Below are positions 42,046-45,722 of a stretch of DNA of 64,000 nucleotides, piece after piece. Made by a program: the position numbers and the translations under genes. The stretch is from NCBI RefSeq assembly GCF_029338555.1, contig NZ_CP119989.1:1240001-1304000 (forward strand). The letters are read 5' to 3'. Every line of letters starts with the position of its first letter. Position 1 is the first letter of the stretch. A model generated the notes under the pieces. That model worked only from the letters and a program-made list of their open reading frames with translations, had not been told where the DNA came from and searched no databases. The stretch is from Halobaculum marinum. Its GTDB lineage: Archaea; Halobacteriota; Halobacteria; Halobacteriales; Haloferacaceae.

Positions 42046-43383
42046 TCAGGTGACGCCGCCGCCGCGCGGGTCGTACTCCAAGTGGGCGTCCGACTCGACG
42101 ACCTCGCGGATCGTCTCGACGACGCGGAACACGTCCTCGAAGCGAGTGTACATCGGCGCCGGACAGACGCGGACGACGTTCGGCGGGCGGAAGTCGACGA
42201 TCACGCCACGGTCGCGTAGCGCCTCGCTCACCCGGTACCCCTCCGGGTGTTCGATCGCGACGTGACCGCCGCGACGGGCGTGCTCGCGCGGCGTCCCCAC
42301 CGAGAACGCGTCGCCGAGGCGTTCGTCCACCAACGCGATCAGGTAGTCGGTGAGTGCCAGCGACTTCTCGCGCACGCGGTCGATACCAGCCTCGCGGATC
42401 AACTCGGTCGCACCCTCAATGGGCGCCGACGACAGCATCGGCACGGTTCCGATCTGCCAGGCGCCGGCGGTGCCGGCGTGGTCGTACGTGTGGCGCATCT
42501 CGAACTGCGTCGTCTTGTCGTTGCCCCACCACCCGGCCAGCGCGGGCGTGGCGTCGTGGTGTCGCTCGTGGACGTACAGCCCCGCGGTCGCGCCGGGGCC
42601 GCCGTTGAGGTACTTGTACGAGCACCACACAGCGAAGTCCGCCCCCTCGTCGTCGGCGCCGGCGTCGCCGAGCGCGTGCGGCACCGCGCCGACCGAGTGG
42701 GCGCAGTCGAACCCCGCGAGCGCGCCGTGTTCGTGGGCGGCGGCGGTGATCCGGTCGATGTCGAGGAGTTGGCCCGAGCGGTACAGCACCGAGGGCATGA
42801 ACACGATGCCCACGTCGTCGCGTTCCGCCAGCGTCGCCTCGATGTCCGCCTCGTCGACGGTGCGCCCGTCGCGCGACTCGACGGCGACCAACTGCTCGTC
42901 GGGGTCGATCCCGCGCTGGCGGAACTGCGCGCGGATCGCGTAGTGGTCGGTCGGGAAGTCGAGGTCGTTCACGAGCACCGCGGGCGGGTCGGCGCTCGGG
43001 TCGGGGCCGGCGGGCGTCCCGGGGAGCGTGTCGAGGAACGTTCCGATCAGCGTGTGGATGTTGACGGTCGTGGAGTTGGCGACGACGACTTCGTCGCCGT
43101 CGGCGCCGACCAGCGGCGCGAGCAGGTCGCCGAGGTGTTCGCCGTAGTGGAACCAGTCGGGGTCGGCCGCCTCCCACCCGCGGATGGCGAGTTCTTTCCA
43201 CTCGTCGGTGACGCGCTCCAACGTCGCGACCGCCGTGTCGGGCGCCAGGCCGAGCGAGTTCCCGTCCATGTAGCGCTCGCCGTCGGGCACCGCGAAGTGG
43301 TCGCGGTAGGCGGCCAGCGGGTCCGCGTCGTCGCGCTCGCGCGCGTCGGCGAGGGAGTACCTCGCGGTGTCCGTGTCGCTCAT
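42046..43383 (-). CDS. kynU: Kynureninase
   Basis: A 445-residue fold-type I PLP enzyme. YMDGNSLGLAP and the EVVVANSTTVNIHTLIGTF block, DCAHSVGAVPHAL and the PLP-lysine site CSYKYLNGGPGA are kynureninase signatures; length is typical. It converts L-kynurenine (or 3-hydroxykynurenine) to anthranilate and alanine in tryptophan breakdown. No other kynurenine-pathway gene is within the window. Confidence 0.9.
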   Translation of the reverse strand: MSDTDTARYSLADARERDDADPLAAYRDHFAVPDGERYMDGNSLGLAPDTAVATLERVTDEWKELAIRGWEAADPDWFHYGEHLGDLLAPLVGADGDEVVVANSTTVNIHTLIGTFLDTLPGTPAGPDPSADPPAVLVNDLDFPTDHYAIRAQFRQRGIDPDEQLVAVESRDGRTVDEADIEATLAERDDVGIVFMPSVLYRSGQLLDIDRITAAAHEHGALAGFDCAHSVGAVPHALGDAGADDEGADFAVWCSYKYLNGGPGATAGLYVHERHHDATPALAGWWGNDKTTQFEMRHTYDHAGTAGAWQIGTVPMLSSAPIEGATELIREAGIDRVREKSLALTDYLIALVDERLGDAFSVGTPREHARRGGHVAIEHPEGYRVSEALRDRGVIVDFRPPNVVRVCPAPMYTRFEDVFRVVETIREVVESDAHLEYDPRGGGVT

Positions 43384-43555
43384 GGCTCCGACTACGGGGC
43401 GCGACAGTTAGCGTTGGCGTCGTCGGACGATGCTCACGGGGCGAGGGCTCCGGTGGTCGGCGGAATCGGACCGGTAGCCGACCGACAGTGTCGGTGACCG
43501 CGAACGGCGCGAAGTGGACGTGACACGCCACGAATAACAATGCGGACAGTCGCGC

Positions 43556-43566: not shown

Positions 43567-44391
43567 ATGAGCGACGAGTCCGTACCCGTGACGCGGCGAG
43601 GGGCGACCGCCCTGATCGTCGGGATGGCGCTGGCCGGCTGTGCCAGCGGGTCGCCCACGAACCGACCGACGGCAGCCCTCCAAGAGGAGGCGGACGGCGA
43701 GACCGTCCGCGGGTACGTCGGGTCGTACCACTGGGGCTTCTTCCTACTCGACGGCGACGGCGCCGAGGTCGACCGACTGACGCTCGCTCCGGGGGACGAA
43801 CTCCGGCTCACGCTGTTCAACGTGGAGGCAGAGGCCGCGGTCGAGGCGCTCCCGAGCGGGGTCCGCGACGGCATTCCCGACGAGGAGGAGCGCGCGCGGC
43901 GCAACGTGGCGGCGCTCCCCGACCCGCGCGGGACCGACTTGGAGACGCTCCACGAGGCCGCGGAAGCCTCCTACCCGGACCACGGACTCGCGATCGTCGA
44001 CGACGAGTCCCTCCGAACTGGAGCGGTCGGTCCAGGCCACGGTCCCGGAGGGGGGCACCACGGTCCGCACGGAGGGTGGGGACCGGGTGGTGCAGGACCG
44101 GGTGGTCCGGGATCGGGCGGGCCCGGCGGACCGGGCGGCGGTGGATCACCGTCGACACCTCGCGGCCCCGGGCCGTCGGGGATGGGGGGACCGGGTGGCT
44201 GCTGGGGCGCCGGCGCCGGGTGGACGCTCGCGCCGCCGACGTACCTGTGGCACCATGCGACCGTCCCAGCCGAGGTGGGGTTCGTCGTCGACACGACCGG
44301 CTCCTTCGGCTTCGTGTGCACCGTCTACTGCGGCTACGGTCACCCCTACATGGTCGAACCCGGCCGGATCGTCGTTGGCGACGGGAGCTAA
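43567..44391 (+). CDS. Cu-A-type cupredoxin lipoprotein with His/Gly-rich insertion
   Basis: A 274-residue protein. The N-terminus carries a twin-arginine and lipobox signal, PVTRRGATALIVGMALAGC (Cys25), so export by Tat and lipid anchoring are likely. The rest looks like a cupredoxin. The C-terminal C251-x3-C255-x3-H259-x2-M262 (CTVYCGYGHPYM) is the Cu-A loop of cytochrome oxidase subunit II and nitrous oxide reductase. DHGLAI (His139) is a candidate for the other His ligand. Between them, residues 151-218 are a Gly/Pro/His insertion including HHGPHGGWGPGG. It has no TM hairpin or oxidase neighbours. Electron transfer or copper handling outside the cell is inferred. Confidence 0.75.
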   Translation: MSDESVPVTRRGATALIVGMALAGCASGSPTNRPTAALQEEADGETVRGYVGSYHWGFFLLDGDGAEVDRLTLAPGDELRLTLFNVEAEAAVEALPSGVRDGIPDEEERARRNVAALPDPRGTDLETLHEAAEASYPDHGLAIVDDESLRTGAVGPGHGPGGGHHGPHGGWGPGGAGPGGPGSGGPGGPGGGGSPSTPRGPGPSGMGGPGGCWGAGAGWTLAPPTYLWHHATVPAEVGFVVDTTGSFGFVCTVYCGYGHPYMVEPGRIVVGDGS

Positions 44392-44444: not shown

Positions 44445-45722
44445 TCAGTCGTCGCTCGCGGTCGCCCCCGCCTCTCGCCCGTCGTCGGCGCCGTGGTCGC
44501 CGACGACCAGCAGCGCGCCACCGACGACGACGACGCCGACGGCGACCGCGAGCGAGACACCGCGGACGGCGCCCGCGTAGCCCAGCGAGTCGGTGAGGAG
44601 GGTGACGACCGCCCCCATCGCGACCGGTGCGCCGGTCGACCCGACGCGCCCGACCGACTCCCCGAGGCTGACGAGGCCGCCGCGAAGGTCGTCGCTCGCG
44701 AGGCCAGTGATCGCCGAGCGGTACAGCGTGAGCGCGACCGAGAAGCCCGCGCCGACCGGGACACCTGCGAGGAGTGCGGCCGGCACGGATGGCGCCAGCG
44801 CGAGCCCCGCCAGCCCGACCGCCCCGACGACGAGCGAGGCGAACGTCGGCGCGGTCCGCCCGAACCGAGCGGTGATCCGCCCGGTTTGGGTCGTCGCGAC
44901 GGCACTCGTGACCGAGGCGACGGCGACGAGCGCGCCCGCCGCGCCGGGGGTTCCGCCGAGCAGGCGCACGACGACGATGGAGTTGTAGGTGAGGAAGGCG
45001 AACCAGAGGAACCCCGGCGTCGCCCGTCCGACCAGCGTCGCGGCCACCGCGGGGCGCGTCGCGAGCGACAGGAGGGCGCGGACGCCGCTCGTGTCGTCGT
45101 CAGTCGACGCGTCGTCGTCCCCGCCGCCGAGGTCTGCGGACTCGTCGAACAGAAGCCAGACGGCGGCGGCGACGGGGAGCGCGGCGGCGTAGAGCGCGAA
45201 CGGGAACCACCACGCCACAGCGACCAGCACACCAGACAGCAGGGGGAACACGGTGAGCGACGCGCCGACGGCGGTGAAGCGGACGCCCTGCGCGGCGGAC
45301 TCGCGAGCGCCCGAGAACAGGTCGCCAGTCGCGGTGATCAGGATCGGGCCGATGCCGGTGTAGCCGACGCCCTGCAGGAGGCGGAGACCGAGTGCGACCC
45401 GGAAGTCGGTCGTCAGCGTCAACGCGACGCCGGCGAGGCCGAACAGCGCGAGGCCGGCGGCCAGCACCGGCTTGCGCCCGTAGCGGTCGGCGAGGACGCC
45501 AGACAGCGGGATACAGACGATGCCGGGTGCGGTGAACGCCGACAGGAGGAGCGCGACCTCGGCGGGCGGGACGCCGTACGGCCCCGCGAGCGTCTCGACG
45601 ACCGGCGAGACGACCGACGCGCCCATCGGCGAGATGAGCGACGCCAGTAGCAACAGCCGGAAGTCCTGGTCGGCGAGCACGTCGGCGTCGTCGCCGACGA
45701 CCCGACTGAGCGAGAGCGGCAC
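44445..45722 (-). CDS. MFS transporter
   Basis: A 425-residue protein with twelve hydrophobic spans. The GTG at 45722 starts VPLSLSRVVGDDADVLADQD, and VLADRYGRKPVLAAGL after span 2 is the MFS motif. It resembles drug exporter-type MFS proteins, with a gap of about 35 charged residues in the middle loop. Substrate unknown. It is divergent from an esterase gene over about 155 bases and converges on the Cu-A-like lipoprotein gene. Confidence 0.84.
   Translation of the reverse strand: MPLSLSRVVGDDADVLADQDFRLLLLASLISPMGASVVSPVVETLAGPYGVPPAEVALLLSAFTAPGIVCIPLSGVLADRYGRKPVLAAGLALFGLAGVALTLTTDFRVALGLRLLQGVGYTGIGPILITATGDLFSGARESAAQGVRFTAVGASLTVFPLLSGVLVAVAWWFPFALYAAALPVAAAVWLLFDESADLGGGDDDASTDDDTSGVRALLSLATRPAVAATLVGRATPGFLWFAFLTYNSIVVVRLLGGTPGAAGALVAVASVTSAVATTQTGRITARFGRTAPTFASLVVGAVGLAGLALAPSVPAALLAGVPVGAGFSVALTLYRSAITGLASDDLRGGLVSLGESVGRVGSTGAPVAMGAVVTLLTDSLGYAGAVRGVSLAVAVGVVVVGGALLVVGDHGADDGREAGATASDD

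Follow-up and report, generated by a model that had tools for sequence, protein, structure and literature searches.

In cytochrome oxidase and N2O reductase, CuA is the site through which electrons enter; PmoD is a recent exception (PMC6189053). The gene at positions 43567 to 44391 of the window (the whole 64,000-nucleotide stretch of Halobaculum marinum DNA that was analyzed) raises the question of whether a CuA-type domain can exist as a secreted protein of its own and, if so, what such a protein would do. The original prediction, made from the letters alone, described a lipoprotein with the exact CuA ligand spacing, split by a His/Gly insertion reminiscent of the prion-protein octarepeat.

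The gene product and its export signal

Every element of that description, namely, the 274-residue open reading frame, the loop C251-x3-C255-x3-H259-x2-M262, His139, the RR...LAGC24 signal, and the Gly/Pro/His stretch, was found in the sequence where it had been placed (Table 1). If translation began instead at an in-frame ATG at 43540, the protein would be 9 residues longer. The protein carries both the twin-arginine motif (R10-R11) and the lipobox cysteine (LAGC24) expected of a Tat lipoprotein, and this putative copper protein is predicted to be secreted and probably lipid anchored. The RR pair is shared by 90% or more of the homologues, and the G23/G24 region is nearly invariant across the 39 aligned proteins; the lipobox Cys is missing from two of the homologues (L068 and L079).

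Table 1. Coordinates of the gene, its sequence features, and its immediate neighbors in the window
Feature	Positions	Strand	Basis
Upstream neighbor, kynureninase-like; unrelated	42046..43383	-	Neighbor survey
CDS, stand-alone CuA-type cupredoxin lipoprotein (group A), 274 aa	43567..44391	+	Sequence, alignment, predicted structure, profile comparison
Export signal with twin arginine (R10-R11) and LAGC lipobox (C24)	43567..43638	+	Direct sequence
Cupredoxin N-terminal beta strands, residues 45-85, with the HWG motif (invariant)	43699..43821	+	Alignment, predicted structure, profile
Folded helical insertion ahead of the first His ligand, residues 86-137	43822..43977	+	Predicted structure; gapped out in profile alignment
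His139, first CuA ligand	43981..43983	+	Alignment; paired with the His of DVxH in COX2-type domains
Gly/Pro/His insertion, about residues 147-220	44005..44226	+	Low pLDDT; variable length in group A
HHGPH core of the Gly/Pro/His insertion, residues 164-168	44056..44070	+	Group-A comparison
WHH motif after the Gly/Pro/His insertion, residues 228-230	44248..44256	+	Kept in 10/10 group-A proteins
CuA loop C251-x3-C255-x3-H259-x2-M262	44317..44352	+	Sequence, alignment, profile searches
Downstream neighbor, MFS transporter; unrelated	44445..45722	-	Neighbor survey

A haloarchaeal protein family

A genome scan retrieved 17 related haloarchaeal loci, and of 391 Halobacteria genomes searched with a profile, 33 had a match, in some cases to a truncated copy. 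Among 393 genomes drawn from the phylum, no full-length member was found outside Halobacteriales, the order to which the window belongs; the matches outside this order were CuA loops in COX2-size and d1-fused proteins only. No encoded relative was found on viral contigs. The working alignment consists of 39 proteins, including 10 from group A (the group of the window's protein). In the core tree, groups B, C, and D each form one side of a branch, as does group A except for L079, the placement of which is weakly supported. On annotated plasmids, family members are labeled "hypothetical protein," and no description of the family was found in the literature searched, which lay mostly outside subscription journals. 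In our assessment, this is a real, conserved haloarchaeal family of stand-alone CuA-type cupredoxins, undescribed in the sources searched.

Several incomplete or rearranged genes accompany the intact members. Four genome stretches contain near-identical truncated group-B genes (L087, L089, L090, and L091; 100-residue open reading frames) whose similarity to the family is limited to its first ∼50 residues. In a 118-residue open reading frame in a reverse-strand frame of L092, the family's C-terminal half, C-x3-C-x3-H-x2-M included, is joined to a membrane-like segment with a Met-rich stretch; this is either a fusion or a decayed gene.

A single cupredoxin domain with the CuA ligand set

Scans against Pfam assigned no significant family to the 274-residue protein and none to the 39 homologues, and a PDB search with the single sequence returned chance matches only. 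When the family profile was compared to PDB sequences, the top match was Thermus CuA (E = 0.0014), followed mostly by other COX2, CuA-azurin, and CuA chains. A comparison to COX2 models had been proposed as a check. The Pfam COX2 model (PF00116) had no match to the protein, and the NCBIfam CoxB model (TIGR02866) scored 13.1 bits against a cutoff of 147.7, covering residues 237 to 263 only. Profile-profile comparison to haloarchaeal CuA domains (COX2 types and d1-fused CuA) aligned the whole domain with an E value of 8e-13. In this alignment, YVGSYHWGF, the LTLAPGDELRL strand, H139, and the Cys loop are all paired with their counterparts. Because a match of this significance pairs H139 with the CuA His, the CuA likeness is not due to chance, and the ligand spacing originally recognized is genuine.

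Four ligand residues (H139, C251, C255, and H259) are invariant in 39 of 39 aligned sequences, as are H55, W56, G57, and G256. The ligand Met is present in 36 of the 39, with Gln in its place in three group-D members, and groups A, B, and C retain the complete set including Met without exception. In known CuA sites, the ligands are a bridging pair of Cys, two His, one Met, and a backbone carbonyl (PMC6696091), the same set that is kept in this family; by analogy, the carbonyl of residue 253 would complete it. His139, proposed from the outset as the first ligand, is supported by its invariance and by its pairing with the CuA His of COX2-type domains.

Structure prediction placed 146 of the 274 residues at a pLDDT of 90 or more, with the core above 90, and gave a single cupredoxin in which the segments flanking the Gly/Pro/His insertion close together, as had been anticipated. 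The nearest solved structures are mostly CuA domains (COX2, N2O reductase, and CuA azurin; Z scores of 8 to 9 and root mean square deviations of 1.7 to 2.9 Å over 92 to 116 residues). In both Foldseek and VIA-align comparisons, the aligned range spans the insertion, running from residue 45 to about 274. The predicted structure of an insertion-free relative, L008, has the same order of elements and gives stronger Foldseek matches, the best of which is Thermus CuA (E = 4e-5). From the alignment and the fold match, we infer that H139 and the Cys loop adopt the CuA ligand geometry and that the domain would hold a dinuclear copper center. Neither a His139 remote from the Cys loop nor a set of homologues without the Cys pair and His stretch was found, and the original prediction of a free-standing CuA-type cupredoxin is borne out by the predicted fold, the PDB matches, and the profile comparison. 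Taken on sequence and modeled structure, the case for the CuA fold and ligands is strong.

One family-wide insertion and three types of loop

The profile-profile alignment gaps out two insertions, one from after approximately residue 85 to just before H139 and the other from approximately residue 147 to 220. The first, of ∼50 residues, is common to every member of all groups and is lacking in COX2. In the predicted structure, it forms helices at residues 89 to 93, 97 to 101, 106 to 116, and 125 to 135 (pLDDT of >90) and appears to pack near the copper end of the domain. This insertion (about residues 86 to 137) and the existence of three loop types in the family had both been missed in the original prediction.

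The second insertion is confined to group A within the family. Its pLDDT ranges from 39 to 57 per 10-residue block between residues 151 and 220, and it is probably disordered. The stretch contains HHGPHGGWGPGG and, at the DNA level, short GC-rich tandem repeats; replication slippage was considered as its origin, but the HHG core is retained in all group-A proteins (10/10), so the insertion is not merely noise. The longer HHGPH core is present in 8 of the 10, the exceptions being L003 (HHGQGPH) and L079 (HHGPGWGHH). Resemblance to the prion-protein octarepeat did not survive the comparison: the window's protein has one PHGGWG-like unit and no tandem repeat, and the likeness is incidental because HGGW occurs in only 1 and PHGG in only 6 of the 10 group-A proteins, the conserved core being HHGPH.

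In groups B and C, a short Met-rich loop, e.g., MPSGQVHMGGGMMMHP, takes the place of the group-A insertion. Most of these proteins have ∼5 Met residues in this short loop after the ligand His, compared to 1 to 3 elsewhere in the mature protein. Group-D proteins carry HDDDG-type His/Asp repeats directly before the ligand His (H185 in L016), with the canonical gap of 34 to 36 residues between this His and the first Cys. The expectation that homologues would conserve both the Cys pair and the His-rich stretch held in full for the former and within group A alone for the latter. Since two other loop types exist besides the His-rich one, a copper-gathering loop of that kind is not a constant of the family. 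The strongest sequence argument for metal capture is that three different loops of metal-binding type flank one and the same ligand strand.

Gene neighborhoods

Apart from the two adjoining genes (Table 1), the neighbors of the window's gene are of housekeeping type. The 79 neighbors of group-A genes include one E1-E2 ATPase and no copper cluster among the Pfam families listed. Many group-B and group-C members, by comparison, sit in islands with copper-related genes, and each of the 23 intact genes in these groups is immediately preceded by one encoding a SHOCT membrane protein, so named for its SHOCT domain (assigned by Pfam); these membrane proteins are small and have a Met-rich segment. By motif, this partner was recognized in 21 of 23 cases in groups B and C versus 0 of 16 in groups A and D (P = 4e-9, for sequences that are related to one another); in the other two cases, L014 and L070, it was recognized by cluster membership. 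In Halorussus halophilus, the SHOCT gene and the CuA-type gene overlap by 4 bases.

Among the 150 neighbors of group-B, -C, and -D genes, the Pfam families counted include SHOCT (21), DUF302 (6), YHS (6), E1-E2 ATPase (5), copper-bind (5), HMA (4), thioredoxin (3), and multicopper oxidase (2). A run shared by Haloprofundus and Halorussus consists of SHOCT, DUF302, SHOCT, thioredoxin, plastocyanin/azurin-type, SHOCT, and CuA-type genes. Two genes in group-B islands (L059:6595-7347 and the gene upstream of L064) encode a plastocyanin-type cupredoxin joined via a Met-rich segment to a SHOCT domain. As group A lacks such a copper context, a copper-handling role for the window's protein is extrapolated from its relatives in groups B, C, and D.

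Proposed role and competing explanations

Copper handling is our best guess at the function, with electron transfer as the main rival. On balance, we think it likely, with some reserve, that the protein is a stand-alone CuA-type cupredoxin for extracytoplasmic copper handling. Following Tat export, most members would be lipid anchored outside the cell membrane, where a loop beside the site (His-rich in group A, Met-rich in groups B and C, and His/Asp-rich in group D) would collect copper, and the protein may contribute to capturing or transferring copper outside the cytoplasm. Candidate partners in groups B and C are the upstream Met-rich SHOCT membrane protein, nearby cupredoxins, and Cu-type P-type ATPases. 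A broader proposal, which we advance only tentatively, is that the free-standing CuA centers of this family capture copper and pass it on instead of carrying electrons and that interchangeable His-, Met-, or His/Asp-rich loops next to the first ligand load the site, in concert with the Met-rich SHOCT partner. A haloarchaeal family that combines canonical ligands with a new folded insertion and copper-island neighbors, and that has no enzyme attached, would widen the known uses of CuA, and it offers small soluble proteins for testing CuA assembly by a built-in loop.

Alternatively, the protein could be a free electron carrier that accepts electrons from membrane donors or halocyanins and delivers them to a reductase or oxidase outside the cytoplasm, with the His-rich loop as a spacer or docking tail. 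CuA centers with known function carry electrons, as in cytochrome oxidase and N2O reductase (PMC6696091), cupredoxin genes occur in the group-B islands, and the genome encodes four COX1/COX2-type oxidases and two additional COX1-family proteins. We nevertheless regard this explanation as rather unlikely: no redox enzyme is consistently adjacent, and loops that are His-, Met-, or His/Asp-rich depending on the group suggest metal binding over docking.

It is improbable, in our estimation, that the domain is a relic that has kept the CuA loop while binding a single Cu(I) or another metal and acting purely as a Cys/His metallochaperone, by analogy with Sco. The replacement of Met by Gln in three group-D proteins would fit such a relic, and the thioredoxin genes of the group-B islands might relate to reduced Cys pairs, but the full ligand set including Met is present in every group-A, -B, and -C sequence.

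Finally, a role as subunit II of an oxidase or NO reductase with its subunit I elsewhere in the genome is very improbable and was rejected on anatomy and genome content: despite the fold and ligands of CuA, the protein has no membrane hairpin, scores far below the CoxB cutoff, and belongs to a family found in a small minority of haloarchaeal genomes (33/391), in a genome that already has four COX2 genes, three of them adjoining a COX1 gene. Both the lack of a hairpin (sequence and structure prediction reveal the signal segment only) and the lack of an oxidase gene among the 10 nearest neighbors agree with what had been noted at first reading. The four COX2 and six COX1-family genes all lie away from the locus, the nearest COX1 gene being several hundred kilobases off. 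Two COX1-family open reading frames (G000:C2:4305-5645 and G000:C2:217103-218443) lie on one contig, each 795 residues long with identical scores, and probably represent a duplication of at least 3 kb.

Comparison with known cupredoxins

The COX2 CuA domain (PF00116; Thermus ba3 CuA, PDB entry 2cua) shares the cupredoxin fold and the ligand order H...C-x3-C-x3-H-x2-M; the family differs from it in having no hairpin or partner subunit and in having a Tat/lipobox signal and two insertions. The CuA domain of NosZ, likewise soluble and extracytoplasmic, is among the top structural matches, but the 274-residue protein is a free-standing single domain without a beta-propeller or CuZ domain. Halocyanins, blue copper proteins of the plastocyanin/azurin family, are also Tat-exported haloarchaeal cupredoxins, and such genes occur in the group-B islands. 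They have a one-copper type 1 site, whereas the ligand loop of the window's protein contains two Cys residues. PmoD/AmoD is another stand-alone extracytoplasmic cupredoxin that forms CuA and is tied to copper use (PMC6189053). In PmoD, which has a membrane helix at its C terminus, CuA forms at a homodimer interface through a Cx7MxHxnC motif (PMC6189053); the window's protein, in contrast, has the canonical ligands within one domain, and the sequence that follows its CuA loop contains no helix and ends in GRIVVGDGS.

A further arrangement of the CuA-type domain is seen in L094:988-2841 (+ strand), in which an N-terminal CuA-type cupredoxin and a cytochrome d1 domain (PF02239; E = 1.4e-76) form one fusion protein. 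L093, L095, L096, and L103 resemble L094 in CuA-domain sequence and length, and proteins of this type are haloarchaeal Tat-signal proteins of about 620 to 660 residues with an N-terminal CuA-type cupredoxin.
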